A stretch of 64,000 bases of DNA from Planctomycetaceae bacterium (GCA_019636285.1 JAHBXV010000003.1:124001-188000), one strand, 5' to 3'. Shown: positions 46,629 through 63,321, numbered from the stretch's first letter. The notes: generated by a model from the letters alone, not told the origin. Translations and numbers: made by a program.

Positions 46629-47900
46629 GTGTCATTGTCGACGGTGCTGGCGGCACAAACCCTCTATGACGTGTTCAAGGAACTGCCCGTTCCATTCTGG
46701 GGACCACTTGGGTCTCTGGGAGCGTTCTTCGCGGCGGCGGGACTGCACGCAGCGCTTCTGATCGCCCTGTTTGGCATCCTGCCCCTGTTCTACATCTGGC
46801 TGGAACGGAAAGTCTCGGCCCGAATTCAGGATCGCCTGGGGCCGACACGCGTCGGCGGACGCTTCGGCTGGCTGCAGACGCTGGCAGACGGCATCAAACT
46901 GATCCAGAAAGAGGATCTGGCTCCCGATGTCGCCGATCGCTGGCTGTTTGGAATCGCCCCCTTCCTGGCGGTCGCGGCTTCCTTTACGGCTTTGGTGGCG
47001 ATTCCGTTTGCCGACGGCTGGGTCGCCGCCCAATCGAACTGCGGGCTGTTCCTGGTTCTGGCCATCCTGTCGCTGGAAGTGATCGGGATCATTCTGGCCG
47101 GTTATTCGAGCGGCTCGAAGTGGGCTCTCTTTGGTGCGATGCGGGAAGCCGCCCAGATGGTGAGCTACGAAATTCCGCTCGCCCTGTCGGCGCTCATTCC
47201 GGTCGTCGTCGTCGGGTCGCTCGATTTCGCGGACTTGGTGGCCGCGCAACAGGGGCCGTTCTGGAACTGGCTGTTCTTCCGCGATCCCTTTACCTGCCTG
47301 TCGTTCTTCATCTTCTTTACGGCGGCGACGGCCAGCGTGAAGCGGGCACCGTTCGACCTGGCCGAAGCCGAGAGCGAACTCGTCGCCGGGTTTCATACCG
47401 AATACAGCGGGCTCCGCTGGTCGTTCTTCTTCCTCGCTGAATACGCGAGCATGTTCACGGTTTCCGCGCTGGCGGTGCTGCTTTACTTCGGAGGTTGGTC
47501 AACAGGATTGAATCTGGAGCCAATATCTGTCGCTGGGACCGGCTTCACGGTCGAGGGCTATCTGCTGAATCTCATCGGCTGCGTTGTCTTCATCGTTAAG
47601 GCGTGTGTGCTGGTGACTGTACAAATGTGGGTGCGCTGGACGCTGCCGAGACTCCGCATCGATCAGGTGATGACGACGTGCCTGAAATATCTCGTGCCGA
47701 TTTCGTGCGTGCTGCTGTTCGCCGCCGCCTTGTGGCCACTGATGCTGCTGAAGGTTCTCAACCGGACACAGCTCTTTCCCCGTTCAACGGTCGCCGCAGT
47801 GATCCCCAACGAGGTATTGACGCCCGAGCCCAAGCTGAACGTGATTACGATCGACCCGCGGCAACTGGCGCCGACCCCCGAAAGCGAGGGTCCGCAGTGA
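46629..47900 (+). CDS. nuoH: NADH-quinone oxidoreductase subunit H
   Basis: Start placed at GTG 46629, six bases after AAGGGG; the frame opens at GTG 46557. It has 423 residues and about eight or nine membrane helices. Family sequence: WLERKVSARIQDRLGPTRVGG, LQTLADGIKLIQKED, MREAAQMVSYEIPLALS, and the conserved quinone-tunnel loop KRAPFDLAEAESELVAGFHTEYSG. NuoH joins the peripheral arm to the membrane arm of complex I and helps form the quinone site. The C-terminus has a Pro-rich tail of about 40 residues beyond the family core. It overlaps nuoJ as GTGA, with no nuoI between. Confidence 0.95.
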   Translation: MSLSTVLAAQTLYDVFKELPVPFWGPLGSLGAFFAAAGLHAALLIALFGILPLFYIWLERKVSARIQDRLGPTRVGGRFGWLQTLADGIKLIQKEDLAPDVADRWLFGIAPFLAVAASFTALVAIPFADGWVAAQSNCGLFLVLAILSLEVIGIILAGYSSGSKWALFGAMREAAQMVSYEIPLALSALIPVVVVGSLDFADLVAAQQGPFWNWLFFRDPFTCLSFFIFFTAATASVKRAPFDLAEAESELVAGFHTEYSGLRWSFFFLAEYASMFTVSALAVLLYFGGWSTGLNLEPISVAGTGFTVEGYLLNLIGCVVFIVKACVLVTVQMWVRWTLPRLRIDQVMTTCLKYLVPISCVLLFAAALWPLMLLKVLNRTQLFPRSTVAAVIPNEVLTPEPKLNVITIDPRQLAPTPESEGPQ

Positions 47901-48673
47901 CAATCACACAAATTCTCTTCGGCGTCTTCGCGGGACTGGCGTGCGTTTCGGCCATCGCGGTCGTTCTGGTCGACAACGTCGTCCGGATGGCCTTCTGGCT
48001 CGTCATGGCACTCGGCGCGATGGCGGGGCTGTTCCTCCTGTTACACGCCGATTTCCTGGCCGCGTCGCAACTCCTCATTTACGCCGGTGGAACGGTGGTG
48101 ATTCTGATCTTCGGCGTCATGCTCACCGCCACTGGTCCGTTTGCTTCACTCAAATCATCAGCCGGGCAAACCGTCCCCGGACTGAGTGTCTCGGGTCTTC
48201 TGATCGCGATGCTGGTCTCAACCATTGCAGCGGTCCCGTGGACCGGCCTGGGAAAAGCCGTGGGACGGTCGCCCGCCTCGCTCGACCAGGGAGTCATGCG
48301 CCAGGGCGACCTTGCCGCAGCGATGGCCGACTCGGACGAAACCCGCGAAGCCGTCATGGCTGTCACCGATAACTGGCAGAACCGGGTCGAGGTCGGCCGC
48401 AGCACGGCTCCGTTGGGCCTGGCACTGATGGGACTGCGACCTGATCGCGACCTGATCGCCGGGAATAAACCGTCGACCCTGTCGCCCGGCTACCTGCTGC
48501 CGTTTGAAATCATTTCGATCCACCTGCTCGTTGTGCTGGTCGCGGCGGGCTATCTCGCACGGGCCAAGCGTCCTCGAGCGACGGAAGAAGTCCATATTGT
48601 GACGGCGGGCAGTTCGGTGACTCCGAAAGAACATCGCATCGACGCTGCCACGAGTGAATCGGCAGACGGTTAA
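47897..48673 (+). CDS. nuoJ: NADH-quinone oxidoreductase subunit J
   Basis: A 258-residue protein starting at GTG 47897, overlapping the nuoH stop. Helices 1-4 include VRMAFWLVMALGAMAGLFLLLHADFLAASQLLIYAGGTVVILIFGVML, the NuoJ core with its pi-bulge helix. A polar insertion of about 60 residues (near 110-175) separates this from the last helix (FEIISIHLLVVLVAAGYLA). Typical NuoJ is about 170-190 residues, so this one is long. It forms part of the proton-pumping membrane arm. Confidence 0.93.
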   Translation: MTITQILFGVFAGLACVSAIAVVLVDNVVRMAFWLVMALGAMAGLFLLLHADFLAASQLLIYAGGTVVILIFGVMLTATGPFASLKSSAGQTVPGLSVSGLLIAMLVSTIAAVPWTGLGKAVGRSPASLDQGVMRQGDLAAAMADSDETREAVMAVTDNWQNRVEVGRSTAPLGLALMGLRPDRDLIAGNKPSTLSPGYLLPFEIISIHLLVVLVAAGYLARAKRPRATEEVHIVTAGSSVTPKEHRIDAATSESADG

Positions 48674-48692
48674 AGCAAACGCGGGAACGACT

Positions 48693-49004
48693 ATGGACGG
48701 AGTTGGACTGGAAGCCTACCTGATCGTCGGTGCCATTCTGTTTGGCTGCGGATTCGCGTGTCTGTTGGTCAAACGCAATGCCATCGCCATCCTGATGGGC
48801 GTCGAACTGCTCCTCAACGGAGCGAACCTGAACTTCCTGGCCTTCGCGCGGTTCACGTCGCTGGGGCTGGATGGACAGGTGATTGGCCTGTTCGTGATCG
48901 TTCTCGCGGCCGCGGAGGCGGCGGTCGCATTAGCAATTGCCCTGAACTTCTACAACAACCATTTGTCCATCGATGTTGACTCAGCGAAAGAGCTGAAGGA
49001 CTGA
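48693..49004 (+). CDS. nuoK: NADH-quinone oxidoreductase subunit K
   Basis: A 103-residue protein starting at ATG 48693, preceded by GCGGGAACG. It has three membrane helices: AYLIVGAILFGCGFACLL, NAIAILMGVELLLNGANLNFLAF with the conserved Glu of the E-channel, and VIGLFVIVLAAAEAAVALAIAL with the second conserved Glu. Length and sequence are typical. Confidence 0.94.
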   Translation: MDGVGLEAYLIVGAILFGCGFACLLVKRNAIAILMGVELLLNGANLNFLAFARFTSLGLDGQVIGLFVIVLAAAEAAVALAIALNFYNNHLSIDVDSAKELKD

Positions 49005-49010
49005 TTGAAA

Positions 49011-49074
49011 CTCGTTTCCAGGCACTGCTTGGGAACGATCTGGAACCGACGCTCCGAGGCAGAGGCTGGGAGCG
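49011..49074. repeat. Two-hairpin intergenic repeat between nuoK and nuoL
   Basis: The first arm pair CTCGTTTCCAGGCA / TGCTTGGGAACG (49011-49037) and the second CGCTCCGAGGC / GGCTGGGAGCG (49050-49074) form two imperfect hairpins. The 11-mer GCTTGGGAACG (49027-49037) recurs at 10809-10819 in the hairpin before the WD40 gene, suggesting a dispersed palindromic family. Confidence 0.55.
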
Positions 49075-49111
49075 AGATGAATCTGGGAACACCCCCCGAA
49101 CTGATTGACCG

Positions 49112-51460
49112 ATGCCCGAGACTGCGGAAACCTCCCACCTGATTGTCCGGAATCTGCTGACGGCGGCATGGCTGCTGCCGCTCGCGGCCTTCATCGCGCA
49201 GGTCTATGCGGTCGAGTGCTGGTCGAATCGCCTCAGCCGTGCTTCGGGTCTCCTTGGCTGTGCGGCAATTGGCGGCAGTCTTGTCTTGTCTCTGCTCGCG
49301 GTGGCATTTTTTCCGTCTGGCTCAGGCTCTGCCCATACTGCTGATGATGGAAGCAATCACGCTGCCGTCGATGCCGAGCACGAAGCGCATCCTTCTGCGA
49401 CGCCCGCAGCGCTCGCCGGTCGTTATTACACGCTCGCCAGATTTGGCGATTCGCGGCTGGAGTTGGGCTGGTATGTCGATTCGCTGACGCTGGTGTTGTT
49501 CGTCGTGATCGGTCTGATCGCCAGTTGCGTTCACGTCTTTTCCCTTGGCTATCTCGATGACGAGCGAACCGAAGACTATCGCGATGAACATGCCCATGCG
49601 GGGGATGAGCAGCCCGTGTCGCGAGCGGGGCGTTTCCATCTCTTCTTCGCCTATCTGTCGCTGTTCTGCTTCTCGATGTTTGGCCTCGTGCTGGCCGGGA
49701 ACCTGCTACAAGTTTTTGCCTTCTGGGAGCTGGTCGGGTTTTGCAGCTATCTGCTGATCGGCTTCTATCGGGAGCGACCGTCCGCCGTTCGCGCGGCCAA
49801 CAAAGCTATCCTCGTGAATCGTGTCGGCGACTTCGGTTTCCTGATTGGCCTGGCCGTGCTCTGGACTTCCGTGGGGACGCTGCAATTCGCTACGGAGGTC
49901 GATTCCAAGGGAGTCACCGCATCGGGACTGTTTGAACAGGTCCGTGGCGATGGGCAGTTGGAACTCTCCGACGATTCGAAATCCGTCGTGTTGCAACGTC
50001 ATTTGGAAGCCGGCGACGAACCGGCTCCTACCCGGCCAACGATCGCCTATACCCTGTTCGTACTGGCGGGGTTGGGGATCGTAGCCGGCAGTATCGGAAA
50101 AAGCGCGCAGTTCCCCCTCCAGACGTGGCTCCCGGATGCCATGGAAGGACCGACGCCGGTTTCCGCCCTGGTCCACTCGGCGACGATGGTTGCCGCAGGT
50201 GTTTACCTGGTCGCGCGCTGCTATCCGCTGCTCGCGCCCGAGGTTCTGCTCGTCGTGGCTTATGTGGGTGCGGCAACGTTGTTCATAGGCGCGACCATCG
50301 CACTCACGGCCACGGAACTTAAGCAAGTCCTGGCATTTTCGACGATCAGCCAGCTTGGCTACATGATGCTGGCGCTTGGCGTCGGTGGCTGGGGCGCGGG
50401 CGTCTTTCATCTCTCCACGCACGCCTTCTTCAAATCGCTGCTGTTTCTATCAGCCGGTAGCGTGATTCTGGCCTGCCACCACGAACAGCGCCTCGATCGC
50501 CTGGGTGGATTGCGGCATCGGCTCCCCTGGACAGCAGCCGCGATGCTGATCGGAACGCTCGCCGTCACGGGAGTCGGCATTCCCAATCCGTGGGCGCCCG
50601 GCTATTCGCTGGCGCTGTCTGGCTTTCATTCCAAGGACATGGTGCTGGCCTCGGCACTCGCATTCGTCCGACTCAATCCGCTCCATTCCCTGTTGTACCT
50701 GGTCCCTCTGGCCGGAGCGGGTATCACCGCTGTCTACATGTTTCGCCTGTGGCTGAAAGTCTTCGTGGGCCGCCCAGCCGACCAGCATGTGTTCGAGCAT
50801 GCCAAGGAGTCGCCTCCGGTCGTGCTGATTCCGCTGGCCGTCCTGGCATTTTTCTCAGTCTTCTCGGCCGTGGGCGGGGAATCGAGCTGGCTCTATCGCG
50901 GACTGGTCACCAGCGAACCCGCGTTCGTCGCCGCATCGTCAACAAGTTCAGCGATCTGGCCCATCACGCATCCGGGCCATGAAGAGATTCATGCGGCGCA
51001 TGGAGCGGCGGGCCTGATGGTCTGGCTCGTCGCGATGGCCGGCGCGGGAATCGCAATCTGGATTTTCGGCTACCAGCCGTTCTCGGCGGACGAACTGCGC
51101 GCCACGTTCCCCCGACTGCGCCAGTTTCTGCTCGACCGCTGGCGGTTCGATGCGCTGTACGACCTGGCGGTTGTGCAGCCGGTCTTGCGGATCTCTCGAC
51201 AGGCGATTGCCATCGACCGCACCGTCATCGATCCCTTGCTGCATGGGGCCAGTCGTTTGCTGGTTCAACTAGCCGGTTGGGGAAGACGGATTGATGAACT
51301 GCTGGTGGATGGAGCGGTTGTGGGAATCGGTGCCTGGACGTGGCGATCGGGTGAGCGATTGCGAAGGCTGCAATCGGGCCAGTTACGACAATATGTCTTG
51401 TGGTTGGGACTTTCGGTGGTGGTGTTGTTTGGCGTGGTGACCTGGATGCGACCGGGATAA
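49112..51460 (+). CDS. nuoL: NADH-quinone oxidoreductase subunit L
   Basis: A 782-residue antiporter-like subunit, longer than the usual 610-660. Key segments are FAFWELVGFCSYLLIGFY (conserved Glu), LPDAMEGPTPVSALVHSATMVAAGVYL, the Lys-bearing helix in TATELKQVLAFSTISQLGYMML, and HAFFKSLLFLSAGSVI. A His- and Glu-rich loop lies near residues 75-105, and the C-terminal region includes the lateral helix. It pumps protons in complex I. It is separated from nuoK by a repeat element. Confidence 0.95.
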   Translation: MPETAETSHLIVRNLLTAAWLLPLAAFIAQVYAVECWSNRLSRASGLLGCAAIGGSLVLSLLAVAFFPSGSGSAHTADDGSNHAAVDAEHEAHPSATPAALAGRYYTLARFGDSRLELGWYVDSLTLVLFVVIGLIASCVHVFSLGYLDDERTEDYRDEHAHAGDEQPVSRAGRFHLFFAYLSLFCFSMFGLVLAGNLLQVFAFWELVGFCSYLLIGFYRERPSAVRAANKAILVNRVGDFGFLIGLAVLWTSVGTLQFATEVDSKGVTASGLFEQVRGDGQLELSDDSKSVVLQRHLEAGDEPAPTRPTIAYTLFVLAGLGIVAGSIGKSAQFPLQTWLPDAMEGPTPVSALVHSATMVAAGVYLVARCYPLLAPEVLLVVAYVGAATLFIGATIALTATELKQVLAFSTISQLGYMMLALGVGGWGAGVFHLSTHAFFKSLLFLSAGSVILACHHEQRLDRLGGLRHRLPWTAAAMLIGTLAVTGVGIPNPWAPGYSLALSGFHSKDMVLASALAFVRLNPLHSLLYLVPLAGAGITAVYMFRLWLKVFVGRPADQHVFEHAKESPPVVLIPLAVLAFFSVFSAVGGESSWLYRGLVTSEPAFVAASSTSSAIWPITHPGHEEIHAAHGAAGLMVWLVAMAGAGIAIWIFGYQPFSADELRATFPRLRQFLLDRWRFDALYDLAVVQPVLRISRQAIAIDRTVIDPLLHGASRLLVQLAGWGRRIDELLVDGAVVGIGAWTWRSGERLRRLQSGQLRQYVLWLGLSVVVLFGVVTWMRPG

Positions 51461-51517
51461 AGCGGTCGCGACAAGAACCTGAAGACGTCAAAACAACCCG
51501 CGAACTGTGTGAATAAA

Positions 51518-53113
51518 ATGCAGAATTTCGACTTGCTTCTGCTCACGGCAATCATCTTCCTTCCCGCCACGTGGGCGGTGCCGCTGTTGTTCTTCCCCAA
51601 GTCCGCCGTGGAGGCGATGCGGTGGTGGACGCTCGCGGGAACAGCCATCACCTTCGGCTTGACGCTGGTTCTCTGGGGGAAGGTGGATTTCTCGTCGCCC
51701 GATATGCAACTGGTCGTGGCGGTTCCCTGGATCGAGCCCTGGAACATCGCGTATCGACTGGGAGTGGATGGCATCAGCCTGCCGCTCATCGTTCTGACCA
51801 GCGGCGTCTGTTTGTTGTCCATGCTCGCCTCGTGGAGCGTCGACAAGCAGGTGAAGGGCTACCTGATTCTCTTCCTTCTCCTGGAAACGGGAATCCTGGG
51901 TGTCTTCCTGGCGCTCGATTTCTTCCTGTTCTTCATCTTCTGGGAAGTCATGCTGCTTCCCATGTATTTCCTCATCGGCGTGTGGGGCGGCCCACGGCGG
52001 GAATACGCAGCCATCAAGTTCTTTCTCTACACATTCGTCGGCAGCGTGCTCATGCTCGTCGCCATGCTGATGCTGTACTTCGAAGGGGGATACACATTCG
52101 ACCTCATGCGACTGGCGGCCATCGGCGAGGGACGCATCGACGGATTGCAGTTCTCGCGGTCATTCCAGATCGTCACGTTCTGGCTGCTGGCCATTGGTTT
52201 CGCGATCAAGCTACCAGTCGCGCCGCTGCATACTTGGTTGCCCGACGCGCACGTCGAGGCCCCCACCCCCATTAGCATGATTCTGGCCGGCGTCCTCCTC
52301 AAACTCGGCGGCTATGGTTTTTTGCGAATCGCCCTGCCGATTTGCCCGTACGGGACACAGGCGGCCGCCTGGGCACTGGTCGGATTCGGCGTCTTCAGCA
52401 TTCTGTATGGAGGGCTGGCAGCGCTGGCTCAGACCGATTTCAAACGACTGGTGGCCTATAGCTCTGTCAGTCACATGGGTTTCGTACTGATCGGCCTCGG
52501 TTGCTGGAAGATTAGCGAGCAGACCGGAATGGGCGTGGGCCTCAAACATTGGGAGATGGGACTGCACGCGGCCCTCTTTCAGATGATCGCACACGGCATC
52601 ACGTCGACCGGCATGTTCTTCATGGTGGGCGTCCTCTACGACCGGGTTCACCATCGCGACCTCAATCGCTTTGGGGGGATTGCCAATCGCATGCCCGAGT
52701 ACGCGGGTCTGGCGGCGGTGCTGTTCTTCGCCGGACTCGGTCTTCCCGCGCTCTGCGGATTCATTGGCGAAGTCTTCGCGATTCTGGCTGTCTGGAATTA
52801 CTCACCGCTGGCAGCCGTGCTATCGGCCCTGGGGATGATTCTCGCCGCGGCCTATGTCCTCTGGACCGTGCAGCGCGTCTATCTGGGCAGCGAATACCAC
52901 GGGCCTCTGGCCGAGAATCTCACCGCGCTGCTCCCCCGCGAGCGTTTCGTCGCGTATGTTCTGTCGATTCTCGCGATCGTGTTCGGCGTGTTGCCGAATT
53001 TGCTCTTGAGTCGCATGCAGCCACCTTTGCACCAATTGGTCATCCGCATGGATGAAGCCTATCGCGGGTTGCACCAGGTGCTCGCTTCAATCGGTCAGGC
53101 GGGCGGGGGGTAG
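51518..53113 (+). CDS. nuoM: NADH-quinone oxidoreductase subunit M
   Basis: Start taken as ATG 51518 (GTG 51509 is in frame); 531 residues, normal length. It has FWEVMLLPMYFLIGVWGG with the conserved Glu, LPVAPLHTWLPDAHVEAPTPISMILAGVLLKLGGYG, DFKRLVAYSSVSHMGFVLIG and HGITSTGMFFMVGVLYDR. It is a proton-pumping antiporter-like subunit with about 14 helices. Confidence 0.95.
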   Translation: MQNFDLLLLTAIIFLPATWAVPLLFFPKSAVEAMRWWTLAGTAITFGLTLVLWGKVDFSSPDMQLVVAVPWIEPWNIAYRLGVDGISLPLIVLTSGVCLLSMLASWSVDKQVKGYLILFLLLETGILGVFLALDFFLFFIFWEVMLLPMYFLIGVWGGPRREYAAIKFFLYTFVGSVLMLVAMLMLYFEGGYTFDLMRLAAIGEGRIDGLQFSRSFQIVTFWLLAIGFAIKLPVAPLHTWLPDAHVEAPTPISMILAGVLLKLGGYGFLRIALPICPYGTQAAAWALVGFGVFSILYGGLAALAQTDFKRLVAYSSVSHMGFVLIGLGCWKISEQTGMGVGLKHWEMGLHAALFQMIAHGITSTGMFFMVGVLYDRVHHRDLNRFGGIANRMPEYAGLAAVLFFAGLGLPALCGFIGEVFAILAVWNYSPLAAVLSALGMILAAAYVLWTVQRVYLGSEYHGPLAENLTALLPRERFVAYVLSILAIVFGVLPNLLLSRMQPPLHQLVIRMDEAYRGLHQVLASIGQAGGG

Positions 53114-53176
53114 CCCCACTCGCATCACGATAGTTAGGCCACGACTTACCTCGCCGATTCGCCAGGTTTTCTCGAA

Positions 53177-54790
53177 ATGACGTTTGCCGAACTCGTCGCG
53201 CAATGGCTCCAGCAGGGGCTCAAATCACCCCTGGGGCCTTTCGCCCCGGAACTGGTGATTTCAGCGGCCATTGTCGGCGCGCTCCTGGTCCGTCTGGGCG
53301 GGTTCGACCGTGCGATTCCGGCCTGGTTTGTCGCTCTTGGCGGCTCGCTTTTGGCGTTGCTCCTGGCCGTGACGGGACTGGACGATGTCCCGCGAACCCT
53401 GGCCGTGGACGATCAGTTGCTGTTCACGGGCTTGTTGCGGCTCGATCCGTGGGCGGCGTTTTTCCGCGTCTATGTGCTGCTCTTCACGGCCCTGATTGTC
53501 GGACTGATCGTCCTGACGCGATTGGTCGACCATGAAGACAATCCCGATCTCTTCGCGATGCTGCTTGGCGCAACACTCGGCATGCTGCTGATGTGCTCCG
53601 CCAATCACGTGCTGATGCTCTTTCTCGGAATCGAAATGGCAAGCATTCCCAGCTATGCGATGACGGGGTTCTTCAAAGGGCGGCGTCAATCGGGCGAGGC
53701 CGCCTTGAAGTTCGCCGTCTACGGAGCCGCGGCCGCTGGAATCCTACTGTATGGGCTCAGTCTCGTCTGTGGGATCTTGGGAACGGCGGACCTGCAGGAG
53801 TTCTCGCCGAAGCTCGCCCTCATCTTTGGCGATGCCGCGCTGGGTGATCGCGTCGCCGAGACGCGTGGTCTCGCGCTCGGGCTGATTCTGATTCTCGCCG
53901 GATTCGGCTTCAAACTCTCGCTGGTGCCGTTTCACTTCTGGTGCCCGGATGCCTTCGAAGGCGCGGCCGCAGAGATCGCCGCGTATCTGTCGGTCGCGTC
54001 GAAGGGAGCAGCGTTCGCCGCTCTTGTCCGCTTTCTGGCGGCGATCTTCGATCCGACGATTCCCGCGATGGCCTCCATGGGATACGGAGCGGGAATTGTT
54101 CTCGGCGGCGTCGCCATCCTCACGGCGACCCTGGGAAATCTTGCCGCCTATCCTCAGACAAATCTCAAGCGACTGTTCGCGTATTCAACCATCGCGCATG
54201 CCGGTTACCTGCTGATGGGGGTCGCCGCGTGGCTCGTGCTACTCTCGTCATCGCTCGTTCGACAGGACGGTACGCCGGCCGCGCAGCGGGCGCTGGAAGG
54301 ACTCGTCTATTACCTGGTCGCCTATCTGTTCATGAACCTGGTCGTCTTCGCGGCCACGGCAATGATCCGCAATCAGATTTTCAGCGAAGACCTGCGCCGC
54401 TGGTCCGGCCTCGGAGCGTCCGCTCCGCTGCTCACCGGGTGTCTCGCGGTGGGACTGTTCAGCCTGATCGGTGTTCCTCCGTTCGGAGGGTTCATCGGCA
54501 AGCTGTTCGTCTTCAGTTCGCTCGTTGACGCCTCCAGCCTGCACGGCATCTTCTGGATCGTTCTGGCTGCCGGAGCGATCAACACGGTCTTCAGTCTGTT
54601 CTATTACGTCAAGATTCTGCGGGTCATGGTGCTCAGCCCGCGATCCGCGGAAACGGCCGGCGAACTGAACGTGGAGTGGGCCGACAACAGTTATCTTCTG
54701 ATGATTACGATTCCGATTGTCGTTCTGGGGCTCGCCGTTCCTCTCGTTCTCCCGATCTGCCAGTGGGCGGCCGGCCCCTGGAGCCTTTAA
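53177..54790 (+). CDS. nuoN: NADH-quinone oxidoreductase subunit N
   Basis: A 537-residue antiporter-like subunit. Signature segments are LFLGIEMASIPSYAMTGFFKG, LSLVPFHFWCPDAFEGAAAEIAAYLSVASKGAAF, TNLKRLFAYSTIAHAGYLLMG and PPFGGFIGKLFVF. It ends the nuoHJKLMN block. Genes for the peripheral arm (NuoA-G and I) are not in the window. No terminator follows, and the next gene starts 23 bases later, so read-through is likely. Confidence 0.95.
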   Translation: MTFAELVAQWLQQGLKSPLGPFAPELVISAAIVGALLVRLGGFDRAIPAWFVALGGSLLALLLAVTGLDDVPRTLAVDDQLLFTGLLRLDPWAAFFRVYVLLFTALIVGLIVLTRLVDHEDNPDLFAMLLGATLGMLLMCSANHVLMLFLGIEMASIPSYAMTGFFKGRRQSGEAALKFAVYGAAAAGILLYGLSLVCGILGTADLQEFSPKLALIFGDAALGDRVAETRGLALGLILILAGFGFKLSLVPFHFWCPDAFEGAAAEIAAYLSVASKGAAFAALVRFLAAIFDPTIPAMASMGYGAGIVLGGVAILTATLGNLAAYPQTNLKRLFAYSTIAHAGYLLMGVAAWLVLLSSSLVRQDGTPAAQRALEGLVYYLVAYLFMNLVVFAATAMIRNQIFSEDLRRWSGLGASAPLLTGCLAVGLFSLIGVPPFGGFIGKLFVFSSLVDASSLHGIFWIVLAAGAINTVFSLFYYVKILRVMVLSPRSAETAGELNVEWADNSYLLMITIPIVVLGLAVPLVLPICQWAAGPWSL

Positions 54791-54813
54791 CAATCATCGA
54801 GAGGATTCCGCGA

Positions 54814-55266
54814 GTGGCAGGCGACGCCATCGATCAACATCTTTCCCATCAGGCCCGCGAGCGACTGCGCGAGGTTCTGAGTTCGCTGGGGGGAAGCCTG
54901 CTTCAATACTCCCGCCACTGCTCGCCGTGGGTTCCCCATCACGCGGAACCGACGCTCGCCGCCCTGATGAAACTCGTTGAACGGCAGAGTGACTCCGTTC
55001 GCGAATTGGCGGAAAGTCTCGGAATGAACGTAGTCGATTTCGCCGCGCGTTCGTCGGACGACTTCACCGACATGCATTATGTTTCGCTTGACTTCCTCAT
55101 CGAGCGAATTCTCGCCGATCAAAGCCGCCGCGTGGCACGTCTGAAGGCTGATGTCGTTGATCTCGAAATCGGCCTGCCGCCTCTCGCCCGGCAAGTCCTT
55201 GACCGCGAAATCGCCATCCTGGACGAATTACGATCGCTCAAGCACCAACTCGACAATCCGCCTTAG
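54814..55266 (+). CDS. Helical protein of unknown function
   Basis: A 150-residue protein starting at GTG 54814, with CGAGAGG ten bases upstream. It is predicted all-helical, soluble and acidic, with GGSLLQYSRHCSPWVP, MKLVERQSDSVRELAESLG and FLIERILADQSRRVARLKADV. The layout resembles a helical bundle, but I can name no family and no metal-binding motif is clear. It follows nuoN closely and may share its transcript. The stop TAG is the first triplet of a short repeat. Confidence 0.65.
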   Translation: MAGDAIDQHLSHQARERLREVLSSLGGSLLQYSRHCSPWVPHHAEPTLAALMKLVERQSDSVRELAESLGMNVVDFAARSSDDFTDMHYVSLDFLIERILADQSRRVARLKADVVDLEIGLPPLARQVLDREIAILDELRSLKHQLDNPP

Positions 55267-55317: not shown

Positions 55318-56094
55318 ATGCCCTGGATCGATACCCACTGTCACCTCGATGAAGAAAGCCTGGCGGTCGAACTGCCGGCCGTGCTGGAGCGCGCCCGAAC
55401 GGCCGAGGTCTGTGCAATCATCACGATCGGGACAACGCTTGAGGGAAGCCGCCGGGCAATCGCGCTGGCGGAAGCGCATCCGGCAATTCATGCGGCCGTC
55501 GGCATTCACCCCAATTACGCGCAGGACGCGAAGCCCGATGACTGGGCCGAGATCGAGCAACTGGCCAAGTTGCCACATGTCGTCGCGGTCGGCGAAACGG
55601 GCCTGGACCGCTATTGGGACTACTGCCCGCTCGAAACCCAGCGCGATTACTTCGACCGGCATTTGAAACTGTCTCGAGATCTCGGCAAACCGTTCATCAT
55701 ACACTGCCGCGAAGCCGAGTCAGAAGTGCTGGAGCATCTTAACAAGGCCTCGCTGGAAGCCCCTCTCAACGGAGTCATGCACTCATTCGCGGGCAATACC
55801 CAGACCGCGGCGCGGTGCCTGGAACTGGGCATGTTCCTCTCTTTCTCGGGCATGCTCACCTTTCGCCGGAACGATGAACTTCGCCAGATCGCGATCGATG
55901 CCCCTGCCGATCGTCTTTTTGTCGAGACCGACGCACCCTACCTCGCCCCGGCACCCCATCGCGGCAAACGGAACGAACCCGCGTTCGTTCGGCATACGGG
56001 TGAATTCCTGGCTGCCGCTCGCGGAATCTCGGCCGACGAACTGGCTGCCATCACGACGGCGAACGCCCGCCGATTCTTCCGCCTCCCTGGCTGA
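55318..56094 (+). CDS. TatD family metal-dependent DNase
   Basis: A 258-residue TIM-barrel hydrolase of typical length. It begins WIDTHCHLDEES (H-x-H metal ligands), then AAVGIHPNY, AVGETGLDRYWD (Glu ligand), PFIIHCREAESE, NGVMHSFAGNTQTA and VETDAPYLAPAPHRGKRNEP (Asp ligand). Members are Mg-dependent nucleases with 3'-5' exonuclease or AP-endonuclease activity linked to DNA repair. Start at ATG 55318; it stands between two genes of unknown role. Confidence 0.93.
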   Translation: MPWIDTHCHLDEESLAVELPAVLERARTAEVCAIITIGTTLEGSRRAIALAEAHPAIHAAVGIHPNYAQDAKPDDWAEIEQLAKLPHVVAVGETGLDRYWDYCPLETQRDYFDRHLKLSRDLGKPFIIHCREAESEVLEHLNKASLEAPLNGVMHSFAGNTQTAARCLELGMFLSFSGMLTFRRNDELRQIAIDAPADRLFVETDAPYLAPAPHRGKRNEPAFVRHTGEFLAAARGISADELAAITTANARRFFRLPG

Positions 56095-56153: not shown

Positions 56154-56531
56154 ATGGCAGTTGACGGAGCGGCACGAACATGGCGGGAATGGCTGCGACA
56201 CGCCTTCGCAGTCGCGCCGCAAGGTTCCTGCTCGCCCACCGAGGACGAACGCGCCGTCGTCGCGGCGGTCTGCCAGTTCGTTCATCGCCGGGGGATGGTT
56301 GCTCCCGCAATTCTGATGGCTCAGTCTTCGGCACCGCTCGGCGGAGTTGGCGCGCAATCGCTGATCTTTCTGCAGCCCATGCTCGAAGTCGTCTTTGACC
56401 GGCGGTCCCTGGAACTGTGGGCCTCGTTTCTGGCACGTCCGGGAGCAATCGAGTATTTTTGCCGTACTCTCGAGGCGTTGCCCGAGATCGCCACCGAAAC
56501 ATCGCCACCATCCGCAGGGAATCGTGGATGA
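56154..56531 (+). CDS. Small helical protein preceding the GlmL-like gene
   Basis: A 125-residue protein, ATG 56154 after AAAGGG. It is predicted mostly helical, with ERAVVAAVCQFVHRRGMVAPAIL, LIFLQPMLEVVF and a C-terminal helix PGAIEYFCRTLEALPEI. There is no signal peptide. The stop overlaps the ATG of the GlmL-like gene, indicating translational coupling and probably a shared function. I do not recognise a named domain. Confidence 0.7.
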   Translation: MAVDGAARTWREWLRHAFAVAPQGSCSPTEDERAVVAAVCQFVHRRGMVAPAILMAQSSAPLGGVGAQSLIFLQPMLEVVFDRRSLELWASFLARPGAIEYFCRTLEALPEIATETSPPSAGNRG

Positions 56532-58369
56532 ACCATGGGCCGTCAAACGAACAGCGGGAACCAGCCTGGCGAGCCAATCCGGACTCGCTGGAAGTGATTC
56601 TCGCCACTGATTGCGGCAGCACGACGACCAAGGCGATTCTGATCGAGAAGATCGATGGCGTTTATCGCCAGACCTATCGCGGCGAAGCCCCGACAACCGT
56701 CGAAGAACCCCTCGCCGACGTCACAGCCGGAGTCATCAACGCGGCGACGGAGGTGGGAGAACTGGCGGGTCGCCGGCTTGTGGACGACCAAGGTTTGTTG
56801 GTGCGTCCGGCGCGCGGTAAAGATGGCTGCGACGTCTACATTTCAACGTCGAGCGCCGGCGGCGGATTGCAGATGCTGGTCGCGGGCGTCGTCCGCTCCA
56901 TGAGCGCCGCAAGTGCCGAGCGCGCCGCCCTGGGAGCCGGGGCGATCGTCATGGAAACGATCTCCTCGAACGACAAACGCCCCCCCTACAAAACCATTCA
57001 GCGCATTCGCGACCTGCGGCCAGATATGATCCTGCTCTCGGGCGGGACCGATGGCGGCACCACCCGGCACGTCGTGCAGCTTGCGGAACTGATCGCGCCG
57101 GCACGACCGCAGCCGCGATTTGGCGGCCAGTATCGCATGCCGGTAATCTACGCGGGCAATCAGTCCGCGCGTCCGCTGGTGGAAGAGACCCTGCGCGAGG
57201 CATGCGAACTCTCGTTTGTCGAAAACGTGCGGCCGGTGCTGGAACGGGAAAATCTCACCCCCGCTCGGGATCGGATCCATGACCTGTTTCTCGAACACGT
57301 CATGGCCCACGCGCCCGGCTACGACAAGCTCATCGCGTGGGCCGATGCCCCCATCATGCCCACGCCTGGCGCGGTGGGAGACATTTTGCAGCAGATTGCC
57401 AAACGCGACGGCCTGAACGCCGTCGGCGTCGATATTGGCGGTGCCACCACCGACGTTTTCAGCGTCTTCCACGGCGTCTTCAACCGGACGGTTTCCGCCA
57501 ACCTCGGGATGAGCTACTCAATCGCGAACGTCTGTGCCGAAGCCGGTCTTGAGAACATTCTGCGCTGGGTGCATCACCCCTGTCGCGAGGGGGAGTTGCG
57601 AAACCGGGTGAAGAACAAGATGATTCGCCCCACGACCATTCCGCAAACGCTCGAAGCGCTGATCTTCGAGCAAGCCGTGGCACGCGAGGCCCTGCGGCTA
57701 TCGTACTTGCAGCATCGCGAGTTCGCCGTCGACCTGCGCGGCGTCCAGCAACAACGAACAATCGGCGACCTGTTCCAGCAGAACGCGGGGCCACGATCAA
57801 TTGTCGATAACCTGCAACTCGATCTGCTCGTCGCATCCGGCGGCGTCCTGTCGCACGCGCCGCGCGCCGTCCAGACGGCCGCGATGCTGATCGACGCCTT
57901 CGAGCCGGAGGGAATCACGCAACTTGCCAAGGACAGCATCTTCATGATGCCGCACCTGGGCGTGCTCGCGCAGATCCACCCCCGCGCGGCTCTGGAGGTC
58001 TTTGAGCGCGACTGCCTGATTCCACTGGGAACCTGCGTGGCTCCGCGCGGAAACGCGCGTCCGGGCGACGTCTGCTTCCGCTATCGAATCTCCGGCGGTG
58101 GATTTTCGACAGCAGGCGAGCTGCACGTCGGCGACTGGAAGCTGCTGCCGCTCGCGCCCGGAGATACGGCACGAATCGAAGTCGAACCTCATCGCCGCTG
58201 CGACATGGGTGCGGGCCCCGGTCGCTCCATCTCGGCCACCATTCACGGGGGAATCGTGGGAGTGATTCTCGACGGCCGGGGAAGACCATTGCGATTGCCA
58301 ACCGAACGACACGACTGTCAGAAACAAATGGATCGCTGGCAGAAAGAACTGAATCTGTATGCGGAGTAA
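56528..58369 (+). CDS. GlmL/MutL-like ASKHA-fold ATPase (glutamate mutase chaperone family)
   Basis: Start at ATG 56528, overlapping the previous stop; 613 residues. It is an actin-like (ASKHA) ATPase: phosphate loop 1 is ATDCGSTTTKAILIE (near 25-39), phosphate loop 2 is GVDIGGATTDVFSV, and the adenosine loop is LLVASGGVLSHAP. STSSAGGGLQMLVAG and MPTPGAVGDILQQI are typical of the family. Named members help reactivate adenosylcobalamin-dependent glutamate mutase. No mutase subunit (GlmE/GlmS) is in the window. Instead the gene heads a run of membrane-protein genes, so its client here is probably different; that is inference. Confidence 0.88.
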   Translation: MNHGPSNEQREPAWRANPDSLEVILATDCGSTTTKAILIEKIDGVYRQTYRGEAPTTVEEPLADVTAGVINAATEVGELAGRRLVDDQGLLVRPARGKDGCDVYISTSSAGGGLQMLVAGVVRSMSAASAERAALGAGAIVMETISSNDKRPPYKTIQRIRDLRPDMILLSGGTDGGTTRHVVQLAELIAPARPQPRFGGQYRMPVIYAGNQSARPLVEETLREACELSFVENVRPVLERENLTPARDRIHDLFLEHVMAHAPGYDKLIAWADAPIMPTPGAVGDILQQIAKRDGLNAVGVDIGGATTDVFSVFHGVFNRTVSANLGMSYSIANVCAEAGLENILRWVHHPCREGELRNRVKNKMIRPTTIPQTLEALIFEQAVAREALRLSYLQHREFAVDLRGVQQQRTIGDLFQQNAGPRSIVDNLQLDLLVASGGVLSHAPRAVQTAAMLIDAFEPEGITQLAKDSIFMMPHLGVLAQIHPRAALEVFERDCLIPLGTCVAPRGNARPGDVCFRYRISGGGFSTAGELHVGDWKLLPLAPGDTARIEVEPHRRCDMGAGPGRSISATIHGGIVGVILDGRGRPLRLPTERHDCQKQMDRWQKELNLYAE

Positions 58370-58441
58370 CACTCCCACTTGATCTCAATCGGCCTTCACC
58401 AACTACCGACCACCTCTGAATCCGGGAAAGCCACTCACCCG

Positions 58442-59560
58442 ATGCCGCAGGCTTATAGTCCAGGATTGCTGGTTTCTCCGGGACGGACGGTCCGCCGTCG
58501 TCGCATCCTGCCGATCACGGGAGAGGTTCTGGTCGCGCCCGGAGACCATGTCACCGCGCGCCAAGTGGTCGCACGGACGTCAATGCCCGGCGATGTCGAG
58601 CCCGTGAATCTGTCCCGAGTCCTGGGAATTCCTCCGCGCGACCTTCCCCAGCGACTGATGCGGCAGGTGGGTGACGCAGTCCATCCCGGAGACGTCGTCG
58701 CGCATTCACCGGGGCTATTCGGTCTCTTTCCGAAAGACTATCTGGCTGAAATTTCCGGCACGATCGAAGCCGTTTCGCGGGTGACGGGACAGCTCCTCTT
58801 GCGGCGGGAACCGCGTTCCGTCGACGTGCTGGCTTATTTGACCGGAACGATTGCCGAAGTCATTCCAAACGAAGGCGTGGTGGTCGAAACCAGCGCCGCC
58901 GTCGTGCAGGGGATTTTCGGGATTGGCGGCGAAGGATGCGGCTCTTTGCGCATTGTCACTCCGACGTCCCGCGACGATCTGACTGCTGACTGTCTGACCG
59001 AGGAACTCGCGGGGTGCATCGCCGTCGGCGGTCGCAGGATCACGCGAGAAGCGGTTGACCGCGCGCGTGAACTCGGGTTAATCGCCCTGGTCGCCGGGGG
59101 AATCGACGACCACGATCTTCGTGAAATCCTGGGTTACGACCTTGGCGTCGCGATCACGGGGTCGGAAGCGCTGGGGCTGACAATCATCGTCACCGAAGGG
59201 TTCGGTGAAATCGGCATGGCCGAACGCAGCTTTCGGCTGCTGAAGAGTTTCGACGGTCGCGAAGCCAGCGTGAACGGTGCGACCCAGATCCGGGCCGGCG
59301 TGGTGCGCCCCGAAATCGTCATCCCGCTGACACAACGCGAGTTCACCGAAACCGAACTGGAAGAGCCCGTTTTGCGAAACGGGGCCGCCGTACGCGTGAT
59401 CCGAGAACCGTGGTTCGGAGAGTTGGGACAGGTGACCGAATTGCCCCACGAGCCGCGCTTGCTGGCTTCCGGCTCCCTAGCCCGCGTGGCGGGAGTTAAG
59501 TTGCAGTCGGGCGAGATGGCCGTCGTGCCGCGGGCAAATCTCGAACTGATTCAGGGGTAA
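58442..59560 (+). CDS. Barrel-sandwich / KOW-like protein in the GlmL-like operon
   Basis: A 372-residue soluble protein; start taken as ATG 58442, with the frame open from TTG 58379. The N-terminal part (about 8-150) has repeated short strands with LPITGEVLVAPGDHVTA and GDAVHPGDVVAHS, the look of a barrel-sandwich (biotinyl-like or RnfC-like) fold, but no lipoyl or biotin Lys motif. The middle (about 165-300) has EELAGCIAVGGRRITREAVDRA and IVTEGFGEIGMAE, alpha/beta in character. The C-terminal 50 residues begin GAAVRVIREPWFGELGQV, resembling a KOW motif. The function is unknown; it is probably a cytoplasmic partner of the ATPase. Confidence 0.72.
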   Translation: MPQAYSPGLLVSPGRTVRRRRILPITGEVLVAPGDHVTARQVVARTSMPGDVEPVNLSRVLGIPPRDLPQRLMRQVGDAVHPGDVVAHSPGLFGLFPKDYLAEISGTIEAVSRVTGQLLLRREPRSVDVLAYLTGTIAEVIPNEGVVVETSAAVVQGIFGIGGEGCGSLRIVTPTSRDDLTADCLTEELAGCIAVGGRRITREAVDRARELGLIALVAGGIDDHDLREILGYDLGVAITGSEALGLTIIVTEGFGEIGMAERSFRLLKSFDGREASVNGATQIRAGVVRPEIVIPLTQREFTETELEEPVLRNGAAVRVIREPWFGELGQVTELPHEPRLLASGSLARVAGVKLQSGEMAVVPRANLELIQG

Positions 59561-59563
59561 CCG

Positions 59564-60832
59564 GTGCGCGAACCTGTAACCAGGCATGATCGTTCGAATC
59601 ACCACCGCCAGCGCGGCCTCGGCTCGGTCGCGCTCATTGCCATCTGGTGTGGTCTGTTTGCCGCATCCCTGCCGGCCATGGCCGCCGTGAAACCCCCGGC
59701 CGACATTCAAGTCACCGATCTCCCGAATGATGCGGGGAAGGCCCTCACGGTCGAATGGACCTTATCGCCCGATGACCGGGAAACGGCTTCACCGCGTCTG
59801 GTTACCGGCTATCGCGTCGAGCGGGCAACCGTTGGCGACGGTAAGGCAGCGCTCGAATTCACTCTCATGTCCGATGGAATCGCCTATGGCGAAACCCGGT
59901 TCGTCGACAAGTCCGGTAAGCCGAACGAGAAGTACCTCTACCGCGTGATCGCTATTTCTGCCGATGGTGCCGATTCGGTCCCCGTCACCGCGAGCGAGCC
60001 CGCATCGCCTGTCATGAACTGGTTCGACTGGCGCCGCGGCTGGTTTCTCGCCATTACCGCCGTCGTGTGCGGTTTGATTCTTCTCTGCACGGTGCTTGCC
60101 CGGACGGGTAAGCCGTTTTATGTCCGCCCCATCGCGGGGTTACAAGCCATCGAGGAAGCCGTCGGACGCAGTACCGAGATGGGCCGCCCCATTCTCTTCG
60201 TGCCGGGCATCGTCGACATGAATGAAATCGAAACGGTCGCTGGACTGACGATCATGTCCCGTGTCGCGGAAACGGCTGCCGAATACGACACCCCCATGGA
60301 AGTTCCCACCTCTCGCTCGCTTGTCATGGCCGCGGCGCGCGAGGCGAGCGCGGCGGCAGCCATCGCCGCCGGCCGGCCGGACTGGCACGATCCCGAACGC
60401 ATCCACTACGTCACCGACGAGCAATTCGGCTATGTCGCGTCGGTCTGCGGTTGGATGCAGCGGGAAGAGCCCGCCGCCTGTTTTTATCTCGGGAAATTCT
60501 ATGCCGAGTCGCTGTTGCTCGCCGAGACCGGCAACGCGGTCGGGGCCATTCAGGTCGGCGGAACGGCAGAGGCGTCGCAGTTGCCGTTCTTCGTCGCCGC
60601 CTGCGATTACACCCTCATCGGCGAAGAGCTGTTCGCGGCCTCTGCCTACCTGTCCGGCGAGCCCGAACAGTTGGGGACGCTGAAAGGACAAGACTTCGGC
60701 AAGCTCCTGGCAGCCGTGCTGCTCGTCCTGGGCTGCGTGCTCGCGACGATCTCCGTGGTTGATCCCGGCGGCGCGGCGTCTCAGGCAGAGGCTTACTTGA
60801 AGATGTTCATTCTTGGCAAGGGAGAGGAATGA
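59564..60832 (+). CDS. Signal-peptide, FN3-like, two-helix membrane protein (DUF6754-like)
   Basis: A 422-residue protein from GTG 59564, with AGGGGT six bases upstream. It has a signal peptide or anchor (LIAIWCGLFAASLPAMAA), a fibronectin III-like domain at about 45-145 (ADIQVTDLPNDAGKALTVEW), a membrane helix (about 163-185), then a long cytoplasmic alpha/beta domain (about 190-395) with GRPILFVPGIVDMNEIETVAG and PTSRSLVMAAAREA. A final helix lies near 385-405. From memory the cytoplasmic domain matches DUF6754, of unknown function; I cannot verify this. It sits four bases after the KOW-like gene and overlaps the next by ATGA. Confidence 0.72.
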   Translation: MREPVTRHDRSNHHRQRGLGSVALIAIWCGLFAASLPAMAAVKPPADIQVTDLPNDAGKALTVEWTLSPDDRETASPRLVTGYRVERATVGDGKAALEFTLMSDGIAYGETRFVDKSGKPNEKYLYRVIAISADGADSVPVTASEPASPVMNWFDWRRGWFLAITAVVCGLILLCTVLARTGKPFYVRPIAGLQAIEEAVGRSTEMGRPILFVPGIVDMNEIETVAGLTIMSRVAETAAEYDTPMEVPTSRSLVMAAAREASAAAAIAAGRPDWHDPERIHYVTDEQFGYVASVCGWMQREEPAACFYLGKFYAESLLLAETGNAVGAIQVGGTAEASQLPFFVAACDYTLIGEELFAASAYLSGEPEQLGTLKGQDFGKLLAAVLLVLGCVLATISVVDPGGAASQAEAYLKMFILGKGEE

Positions 60833-61524
60833 TGCAGCGGATCATTCCCATGCTGCTGACGTCGATTGTCGGCGTGATCGCCATCGCTTCCTATTTCGTC
60901 CCGGTCGCGCAGCCGTTTCAGGACCGCGTCGAGGAATGGTTCCTCATCGTCGCGGCGATTGCCATGGTTCTCGGGGCGGCAAGCCTGTTGCTGCACCATC
61001 TGAAGGCGATTTCGAATCAGGAGGCCGGATGGGGATATTCGGCCGTGACCGTCGCCGCGCTGGTCATCACGACGACCGTGGGACTGTTGAAGCTGGGCGC
61101 GCCGCCAGACCTCAAACATCCTGAACTGGCCTGGTCGGGCAGCTATCTGGCGGAAGGGGGCGGGGCTTGGTGGATCTACACCTACGTCATGAGCCCCATC
61201 GTCGCGACCATGTTTTCACTGCTGGCTTTTTACGTGGCCTCGGCTGCCTTTCGCGCGTTTCGTGCCCGCAATTTCGAAGCGATGCTGCTACTGGGAACAG
61301 CGCTCATTGTTCTCCTCGGACGAACATCCGACGGCACCTGGCTGACCTCGGGAGTACCCGCTGACTACCCGCTCGCGACCATACCCGGCCTCAACGTCCT
61401 CATCATGTCGGTTTTCAACACGGCCGGTCAGCGAGCCATCATGATCGGCATTGCCTTGGGAGTCGCGGCGACTTCGCTGCGAATTCTGCTGGGGCTCGAC
61501 CGTTCTTACCTGGGCGGAGATTAG
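60829..61524 (+). CDS. Six-helix membrane protein in the GlmL-like operon
   Basis: A 231-residue protein; ATG 60829 overlaps the previous stop, and ATG 60832 fits the GGAGAGG ribosome site slightly better. It has about six membrane helices, including IIPMLLTSIVGVIAIASYF, WFLIVAAIAMVLGAASLLL and MFSLLAFYVASAAFRAF. A short loop reads LGRTSDGTWLTSGVPADYP, and the C-terminal helix pair includes IMIGIALGVAATSLRILLGLD. I recognise no transporter signature. Order and coupling point to a subunit of a complex with its neighbours. Confidence 0.75.
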   Translation: MMQRIIPMLLTSIVGVIAIASYFVPVAQPFQDRVEEWFLIVAAIAMVLGAASLLLHHLKAISNQEAGWGYSAVTVAALVITTTVGLLKLGAPPDLKHPELAWSGSYLAEGGGAWWIYTYVMSPIVATMFSLLAFYVASAAFRAFRARNFEAMLLLGTALIVLLGRTSDGTWLTSGVPADYPLATIPGLNVLIMSVFNTAGQRAIMIGIALGVAATSLRILLGLDRSYLGGD

Positions 61525-61582
61525 CTGACTGACGACTGGCGGACATCGACTGGTTCACTCGGCCACCGGATTACGGATTGAG

Positions 61583-62458
61583 ATGACAACACTGACCGCG
61601 ATCCTCGCATCGCTGCAACGACTGGACCGTCGCTGGATCTTCCTGGCGATGCTGATCGCCGTGTTGATACCGGTGCTGACGCGCGTCACCTATCCCGAGA
61701 CGCCGACGGCGATGACGTCCGCCGTTTTCAACAAGATTGAATCGCTGCCGAGTGGTTCGCGCGTCCTGCTACCGCTCGACTACGACCCGGGTTCGGAAGC
61801 GGAACTCGGCCCCATGGCCAAGGCCGTCATCCGCCATTGCGCTCTGAAACGCCACAAGATGTACTTTCTGACGCTGTGGCCGACGGGGCTCCCCCTGCTG
61901 GAACGCAATCTTCGTCAGATCGTGGAAGGCGAGTTCAAAGAGGTGGGCCTCAAGTACGGTGTTGACTATGTGAATCTCGGTTATGTCCCCGGTGAAGCGG
62001 TCGCGGTGAAATTGCTGGCGACGGACTTTCGCAAGGCCCGCGGCCAGGACAACACCGGAACCTCTCTCGACCGCCTGCCGATGATGCAGCAGGTGCGCAG
62101 CGCGCAGGATATGGATCTCATCATGGCGATTTCGGCTGGTTATCCAGGTGTCAAGGAATGGGTGCTGTTCGCCGCGATTCCCAATCGAATCCCGCTGGGC
62201 ATGGGGGTGACGGGAGTGACGGCTCCGCAAATGTACCCTTACTACCCGAATCAGGTCGTGGGCCTCATCACGGCAATCAAGGGGGCTGCTGAATATGAGA
62301 CGGCTCTGGCAGCGGCCTATCCCGACGAGATGAGCCGTCTCGATGCGAGCGGCATTCAGCGGATGGGGCCGCAACTGTGGGCCCATCGGCTGATGATCGT
62401 ACTGATCGTAATCGGCAATATTCTTCAACTGACGCGCGGTCGCGGAGGTCGAAAATGA
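61583..62458 (+). CDS. Membrane-tethered alpha/beta protein in the GlmL-like operon
   Basis: A 291-residue protein from ATG 61583. A membrane helix at about 18-35 (WIFLAMLIAVLIPVLTRV) is followed by a soluble domain of about 225 residues and a C-terminal helix (LMIVLIVIGNILQLT). The domain has SGSRVLLPLDYDPGSEAELG, FLTLWPTGLPLLERNL and YGVDYVNLGYVPGEAVAVKLLA, suggesting a Rossmann-like fold with a conserved DYDP segment. I cannot name the family. It overlaps the next gene by ATGA. The 58 bases before it are the only sizeable gap in this part of the operon. Confidence 0.72.
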   Translation: MTTLTAILASLQRLDRRWIFLAMLIAVLIPVLTRVTYPETPTAMTSAVFNKIESLPSGSRVLLPLDYDPGSEAELGPMAKAVIRHCALKRHKMYFLTLWPTGLPLLERNLRQIVEGEFKEVGLKYGVDYVNLGYVPGEAVAVKLLATDFRKARGQDNTGTSLDRLPMMQQVRSAQDMDLIMAISAGYPGVKEWVLFAAIPNRIPLGMGVTGVTAPQMYPYYPNQVVGLITAIKGAAEYETALAAAYPDEMSRLDASGIQRMGPQLWAHRLMIVLIVIGNILQLTRGRGGRK

Positions 62459-63321
62459 GCCGCGAATCTCAAATCGGCGTGGCGATCGTCCTCTTGCTGT
62501 TGTCCGGCCTGCTCTTACGCGCCGCGCTGGCGGATCAACCGTGGGGCGTGGTGACCGTCCTGCCCGTCGAGAACGACCCCGCGGAAGCCGTTCGCGAAGT
62601 CTCGCCCGAGACGCCAGGCGTGCAAGTCAGCGTGGCCAGAACGACGGGGCTGTGGCTGGCCGCCTTCTTTACGCTGGCCTGCTATAGCTACCTGTATAAA
62701 GACAATCCCGCCTATAAGCTGACCGAGTCAATCATCGTCGGTGTCTCGGCGGGATATTGGCTGACGGCCAGTTTCTGGGACGTCATTGTTGGCAAGGCGT
62801 TGGCGAGACTGATGCCCGAGCAGATGCGAGCGTGGGCGCTCCCCAATCTCGATCCGGCCGACCCCGACTTCTTGACACTGGTCCCCCTCACTCTGGGCGC
62901 GCTCTTGTTCGCAAGGCTGATTCCGGGAGGGGCCTGGCTGGCACGGTGGCCGCTCGCCCTCATTGTCGGGACGACGGCGGGCCTTAAGCTGGTCCTTTAC
63001 CTCGACGGCGACTTCGTCAGCCAGATTCGCAATACCATCCTGCCGCTGGTCGTCTTCAACGACAACGCCTTCGATCTGGATGGTTCGGCGCGCAACATCC
63101 TGCTCGTGACAAGCGTGCTGTGCTGTTTGACCTACTTCTATTTCTCGGTCGAGCATCGGGGCGCGGTGGGACGAGTCTCACGGTGCGGCATCTGGGTCTT
63201 GATGATTACCTTCGGCTCGTCATTCGCCTTCACCGTCATGGGCCGCATCACCCTGCTGACCATGCGGCTGGAATTTCTATTTCGCGACTGGCTCGGGCTG
63301 CTGCCGCCGAATGTTTCCTGA
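62455..63321 (+). CDS. Polytopic membrane protein, last of the GlmL-like operon
   Basis: A 288-residue protein starting at ATG 62455 inside the stop of the previous gene. The N-terminal hydrophobic segment (IVLLLLSGLLLRAALA) may be a signal anchor. About six more helices follow, with the segment SYLYKDNPAYKLTESIIVGVSAGYW near residue 80, then LTLGALLFARLIPGG, FVSQIRNTILPLVVFND and ITFGSSFAFTVMGRITLL. The Y-K-D-N-P-x-Y-K-x-x-E stretch between helices looks like a conserved feature. The role is unknown. Confidence 0.74.
   Translation: MSRESQIGVAIVLLLLSGLLLRAALADQPWGVVTVLPVENDPAEAVREVSPETPGVQVSVARTTGLWLAAFFTLACYSYLYKDNPAYKLTESIIVGVSAGYWLTASFWDVIVGKALARLMPEQMRAWALPNLDPADPDFLTLVPLTLGALLFARLIPGGAWLARWPLALIVGTTAGLKLVLYLDGDFVSQIRNTILPLVVFNDNAFDLDGSARNILLVTSVLCCLTYFYFSVEHRGAVGRVSRCGIWVLMITFGSSFAFTVMGRITLLTMRLEFLFRDWLGLLPPNVS

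Follow-up and report, generated by a model that had tools for sequence, protein, structure and literature searches.

MutL-type ATPases related to the one described here have a single known role, as helpers of vitamin-B12 enzymes, and GlmL acts as a chaperone for glutamate mutase. What, then, might such an ATPase do in a genome that carries no glutamate mutase, at a locus where it is encoded together with four membrane proteins? The question arises from a 64,000-nt stretch of DNA from a Planctomycetaceae bacterium (GCA_019636285.1, JAHBXV010000003.1:124001-188000), referred to below as the window, to which all positions are relative. The locus spans 56154-63321 on the + strand, and all of its seven reading frames, here called p1 to p7, were found; a preliminary description had counted six coding steps. 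The three ATGA overlaps reported there are present, joining p1 to p2 (56528), p4 to p5 (60829) and p6 to p7 (62455). The other junctions are gaps of 72 bases between p2 and p3 (which begins with an ATG start), 3 bases between p3 and p4, and 58 bases between p5 and p6. Pfam families were matched above their cut-offs by p2 (MutL, PF13941) and p4 (DUF6754, PF20539), and by none of p1, p3, p5, p6 and p7. The features of the locus are as follows.

56154..56531, + strand: p1, a predicted cytosolic helical protein of 125 aa with a conserved P51-A52...L56...P61 stretch in the p1 alignment
56528..58369, + strand: p2, a MutL-family ASKHA ATPase of 613 aa (PF13941, 419.7 bits against a cut-off of 27)
56606..56632, + strand: phosphate-1 motif of p2, TDCGSTTTK, nearly invariant in the p2 alignment
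57431..57454, + strand: phosphate-2 motif of p2, DIGGATTD, invariant in the p2 alignment
58016..58366, + strand: C-terminal extension of p2, residues 497-613, conserved in the p2 alignment; the MutL profile stops at residue 496
58442..59560, + strand: p3, a predicted cytosolic adaptor of 372 aa with barrel-sandwich, alpha/beta and KOW-like parts, from Pfam matches of its members
59564..60832, + strand: p4, a DUF6754 protein with signal peptide, FN3 domain, transmembrane helix, cytosolic alpha/beta domain and second transmembrane helix (PF20539, 380 bits against 27; model pLDDT 89)
59675..60022, + strand: predicted periplasmic FN3 domain of p4 (VIA-align Z 13.6, rmsd 2.3, 103 aligned)
60101..60703, + strand: predicted cytosolic alpha/beta (DUF6754) domain of p4, which holds all invariant p4 residues (alignment, model and topology)
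60829..61524, + strand: p5, a six-helix membrane protein with both ends predicted to be cytosolic; R142 and R145 are conserved on the cytosolic face
61583..62458, + strand: p6, a predicted periplasmic Rossmann-like domain with a transmembrane helix at each end (model pLDDT 94.6, pTM 0.89; predicted topology)
62455..63321, + strand: p7, a polytopic protein with 7 predicted transmembrane helices (6 in many relatives) and conserved E91, W161/R164, R264 and R271

The tatD gene lies directly upstream of p1 (55318-56094), a small protein without a name or Pfam family is encoded at 54676-55266, and genes for membrane subunits of complex I (nuo) occupy 46557-54790, just upstream of the locus. A second genome (G216, locus L034) has the same upstream arrangement of complex I genes, small protein and tatD. 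Respiratory complex I was considered as a partner and rejected: nuo genes stand upstream in these two cases and are absent from most other inspected loci.

The ATPase itself is clearly a member of the MutL family by its PF13941 score, and both ASKHA phosphate motifs are kept in the sampled p2 sequences. The name GlmL, used in the preliminary description, does not fit. Against the curated GlmL equivalog (NCBIfam NF040745) p2 scores 209.9 bits, below the cut-off of 475, and against the Or-4 profile it scores 181.6 bits (cut-off 600). Mutase-linked GlmL frames are shorter than p2, and mutase-linked MutL proteins score 28-145 bits with the p2 profile, whereas most cluster members reach roughly 900-1150. 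In a tree in which the long rows are poorly placed, the cluster MutL proteins are separated from mutase-linked GlmL by a very long branch (SH-aLRT 100), and a single clade for the cluster proteins was not rejected (p-AU 0.29). A search of the PDB returned no sequence relative of p2. Judged by sequence, p2 belongs to the MutL family and falls outside GlmL proper. A third kind of MutL, with no adjoining p3, was also seen, as long open frames of ~825-900 aa that score 455-498 bits to the p2 profile (L178:3310-5817; L180:1943-4651; L169:5275-7749).

The partners of p2 can be sought in its distribution. Across 294 sampled Planctomycetota genomes, MutL was found over cut-off in 80, DUF6754 in 76 and both in 70; MutL thus accompanies DUF6754 in 70 of 76 genomes and occurs in 10 of the 218 that lack it (Fisher p ~4e-49, uncorrected for relatedness). 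The 6 DUF6754 genomes without MutL over cut-off are mostly drafts, and 5 of the 80 MutL genomes carry neither DUF6754 nor the glutamate mutase E chain (PF06368, glmE). That chain was detected in 5 of the 294 genomes; each of the five has MutL, which adjoins glmE or glmS, and all five lack DUF6754. Beyond this phylum, 30 of 30 DUF6754 genomes from other lineages encode MutL. It had been allowed that the ATPase might always co-occur with glutamate mutase genes elsewhere in the genome; this is not the case, as DUF6754 genomes never carry glmE over cut-off (0/76 in Planctomycetota, 0/30 in other lineages). In the window genome (99.8% complete) a single MutL was found but neither glmE (PF06368) nor methylmalonyl-CoA mutase, and hence no AdoCbl mutase partner from the two families tested. 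The early claim of a MutL-like ATPase without glutamate mutase is borne out.

These counts bear directly on the explanation closest to GlmL, in which p2 would reload or repair a cofactor of p4-p7 or of some other enzyme, as has been proposed for AdoCbl mutases. Such a role would suit the membership of p2 in the MutL family and the position of mutase-linked MutL next to glmE or glmS in the same phylum. However, neither glmE nor methylmalonyl-CoA mutase is present in the window genome or in 15 of the 30 other-lineage genomes that carry the system, no B12-binding domain was found by Pfam in p3-p7, and no cobalamin riboswitch was found in the window or at seven further loci. We consider cofactor repair decidedly unlikely.

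Does the set hold together beyond this genome? PF20539 is present in all but one of the sampled genomes of the window's own family, and 40 loci drawn from 40 of the 76 planctomycete genomes that carry it have, for the most part, identical sets of neighbours. A scan of GTDB genomes yielded at least 569 relatives, of which the best 80 loci were examined. These come from Planctomycetota (including anammox genera), Nitrospirota, Methylomirabilota, Latescibacterota, Gemmatimonadota, Sumerlaeota (BRC1), WOR-3/Stahlbacteria, Poribacteria, Zixibacteria, Edwardsbacteria and others. The complete p1-p7 order was found in the first six of these phyla, anammox Planctomycetota included, and the p4-p5-p6-p7 order in nearly all phyla among the best 80 loci. 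Over all loci the expected next gene follows in 89-99% of cases: p2 after p1 in 58/65 (p4 in another 6/65), p3 after p2 in 65/68, p4 after p3 in 78/79 (a figure conditional on the loci having been fetched through p4), p5 after p4 in 117/122, p6 after p5 in 111/114 and p7 after p6 in 104/108. Protein identity between loci is ~30-60% for most of the proteins and lower for p1. This gene order is far beyond chance and, since it is kept across phyla and genomes, represents an old, maintained feature and no local accident. The suggestion of a conserved set with membrane proteins has held up, the same order recurring in several phyla, and the contrary prospect, that neighbours would differ in every related genome, has not materialized, as they are alike across phyla. 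In a Nitrospirota family centred on a Nitrospira lenta genome, DUF6754 occurs in 108 of 118 genomes, nearly always once.

Two further observations concern distribution and order. One complete genome of the window's family (G152) has neither MutL nor DUF6754, offering a case of natural loss for comparison, and a variant cluster with very long p7-like proteins is ordered p5-p6-p7-p2-p3 (L170:5126-7060; L171:8273-10030).

The proteins flanking p2 in the cytosol are p1, for which the PDB holds no relative, and p3. Among 28 members of p3, Biotin_lipoyl is matched in 19 and RnfC_N in 18, both at the barrel-sandwich start, and KOW in 4 at the KOW-like end; mean column identity is 54%. At the place of biotin or lipoyl attachment the consensus reads VVARTxLPG, with no conserved lysine, and the Biotin_lipoyl match spans only part of the profile. 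A PDB sequence search with p3 gave weak matches.

The preliminary description of p4 as an FN3-like protein with two helices was right in its main features, namely an FN3 domain outside, two helices and a cytosolic alpha/beta domain between them, to which a signal peptide must be added. All invariant columns of p4 fall within residues 188-377, and its fully invariant polar residues all lie in the predicted cytosolic part; the FN3 domain is absent in some p4 paralogues. Structure searches with p4 returned two match lists filled by FN3, and its PDB sequence matches are to FN3 only. The cytosolic domain has no clear sequence relative among solved structures.

The protein p6 had been called a tethered alpha/beta protein. 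It is indeed predicted to be held by a membrane helix, but there is one at each end and the domain is periplasmic. Its best fold match, MT0777 (Z 10.3, rmsd 3.4, 141 aligned), and a further match to TON_0340 (Z 9.2, rmsd 3.4, 157 aligned) may reflect a common fold only, since the Z values are middling. Kinship with GLUCM-like_C (DUF4392) and TON_0340 gained no support from profile comparison (probability 0.1%), several of the compared rows being fragments. A common origin of the alpha/beta domains of p4 and p6, which look alike in strand-helix order, was dropped (profile comparison 2%, trimmed domains 0.6%). The models allow the FN3 and p6 folds to be predicted with confidence.

Both p5 and p7 carry conserved polar residues (R142 and R145; N84, E91, W161, R164 and S231, respectively), many of which map to predicted cytosolic loops when placed by hydropathy and the positive-inside rule. 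PDB searches gave no sequence relative for p7 and chance-level matches only for p5 and p6. One locus encodes a natural p5-p6 fusion of 459 aa (L083:5610-6989), either real or an assembly error, which is compatible with the predicted topologies of the two proteins.

Genes next to the cluster offer other candidate partners. SBP_bac_5 or OppD/F genes adjoin it in Latescibacterota, Gemmatimonadota, Sumerlaeota, Anammoxibacter and some Planctomycetota, which might suggest that the seven proteins are an accessory of an Opp/Dpp-type ABC importer. In the 30 other-lineage genomes, 3 of the ~65 SBP_bac_5 genes are immediate neighbours of the cluster, compared with a rough chance estimate of 0.3. On the other hand, 13 of these 30 genomes, most Nitrospira among them, have the system and no SBP_bac_5 at all; for this reason an Opp importer is ruled out as a general partner, and we give the accessory role only the slimmest probability. 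Two other neighbours were observed. At ~20 Nitrospirota loci (e.g. L091:12792-14036) p7 is followed, on the same strand, by a Memo-domain protein (PF01875) that has an additional N-terminal part, and large CarboxypepD_reg-like proteins, possible outer-membrane receptors, occur up to three genes after p7 at six loci (L084:12391-15498, L123 and others).

Actin-like proteins such as PilM, GspL and FtsA place envelope complexes, and p2 could do the same, as a scaffold with little ATP turnover. Its ASKHA family and its envelope-spanning partners with FN3 are compatible with this. The nucleotide motifs are conserved in the sampled p2 sequences, though, Pfam shows no similarity of p2 to PilM or FtsA, and genes for pili, secretion or division do not recur beside the cluster. 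A scaffold is highly unlikely in our estimation.

The copy numbers and splits of the cluster are more informative about how its parts relate. Several lineages carry two or three p4-p7 modules in tandem, and the ratio of DUF6754 to MutL copies reaches 6:1 in a WOR-3 genome (G313) and 4:1 in two other genomes (G316 and G321). The first and second DUF6754 copies form separate old lineages common to the genomes of several groups, whereas the WOR-3 and L056 copies look like later duplications; some modules have therefore coexisted for a long time, presumably because their tasks differ. Where p2 stands apart from p4-p7, p1-p2-p3 are usually together (L152, L155, L166, L167, L189). The p1-p3 block is not inviolable, because p3 sits with p4 and p2 lies elsewhere at L033 and L035; in some genomes p2 is with p1 only, or alone. 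Diverged p2'-p3' pairs with no p4-p7 or DUF6754 beside them were also found (L168:6391-9332; L181:2001-5017; ~700 and ~200 bits). Could these pairs be the same engine at work on a different client? Partial correlations of protein distances across 46 complete loci, suggestive only because such distances follow the species tree, link p2-p3 (0.40), p1-p3 (0.34) and p3-p4 (0.26) as well as p5-p6 (0.50), p6-p7 (0.44) and p5-p7 (0.27).

One explanation for a set of this kind is a motor, in which p2 and p3 would belong to the complex in fixed stoichiometry, with every turnover of ATP powering one transport stroke through p4, p5 and p7, much as in a primary active transporter. The operon organization with gene overlaps across many phyla, the p3-p4 distance link and the conserved polar cytosolic face of p5 and p7 are all in keeping with it. 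Such a stoichiometry is hard to square with a single p2 alongside as many as six p4 copies, which are often unlinked, and we know of no ASKHA ATPase that works as a transport motor. We regard the motor as unlikely. A shared service unit fits better with the 1:6 copy ratio, with engines that are not linked to p4-p7 and with the p2'-p3' pairs.

We therefore prefer, while giving it somewhat less than an even chance, the explanation that the seven genes form one cell-envelope system in which a shared, ATP-driven remodeller (p1-p3) acts on p4-p7 modules. The conserved order, co-occurrence, domain content and intact ASKHA motifs are observed; complex formation, the docking site and the coupling to ATP we infer. 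In this scheme, p1, the ATPase p2 and the barrel-sandwich adaptor p3 would constitute a cytosolic remodelling unit that docks through p3 on p4, at the cytosolic alpha/beta domain where the invariant residues of p4 lie. ATP binding and hydrolysis by p2 might switch or reset this domain and, with it, the p4-p5-p6-p7 module, and p5 and p7 could relay the change to the periplasmic side, where the FN3 domain of p4 and the Rossmann-like p6 domain are placed. The p4-p7 module would be the exchangeable working part, present in as many as six diverged copies per genome that most likely differ in ligand or partner, and p1-p3 would be a service unit common to several of them. What the module does is the weakest step: our guess is that it most likely binds and passes, or senses, a small solute at the inner membrane. 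The original proposal, that the ATPase drives assembly, gating or reactivation of a membrane partner, remains conjecture; the data favour a remodeller that acts in trans and is shared by several modules.

Seen more broadly, the locus may represent a new class of envelope machine, in which a MutL-type ASKHA ATPase would be the shared actuator of exchangeable DUF6754-p5-p6-p7 modules in about ten phyla, core to Nitrospira and anammox bacteria; we judge this proposition to be evenly balanced. Our literature search, with most subscription papers outside its scope, found DUF6754 named in no paper and no description of the set. For a system so conserved and widespread, carried by most nitrite-oxidising Nitrospira (nearly every genome of the sampled family) and commonly by anammox bacteria, we could find no described function. 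If our proposal is correct, the MutL family would have a function beyond B12 enzymes, nitrogen-cycle organisms would have an explanation for a block of unknown genes, and genetically tractable planctomycetes would offer a testable target.

Several known systems resemble parts of this one. The N-terminus of p3 is similar to the RnfC_N and NQRA_N barrel-sandwich of RnfC and NqrA (best members 2.4e-5 and 0.0039, respectively), whereas p3 also carries a KOW-like end and p4-p7 match no Rnf or Nqr Pfam family, so that no Rnf/Nqr membrane subunits were detected by Pfam in the cluster. TON_0340, of the GLUCM-like_C family, and MT0777 have a Rossmann-like fold in common with p6, which shows no profile similarity to GLUCM-like_C. 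A clear member of DUF6754 (PF20539), p4 belongs to a family without a described function. Finally, p2 shares its ASKHA core with the GlmL/MutL helpers of glutamate mutase and ornithine aminomutase (PF13941, NF040745, NF040744), but differs from them in lacking a mutase partner, in carrying a C-terminal extension and in standing on a far branch of the family.
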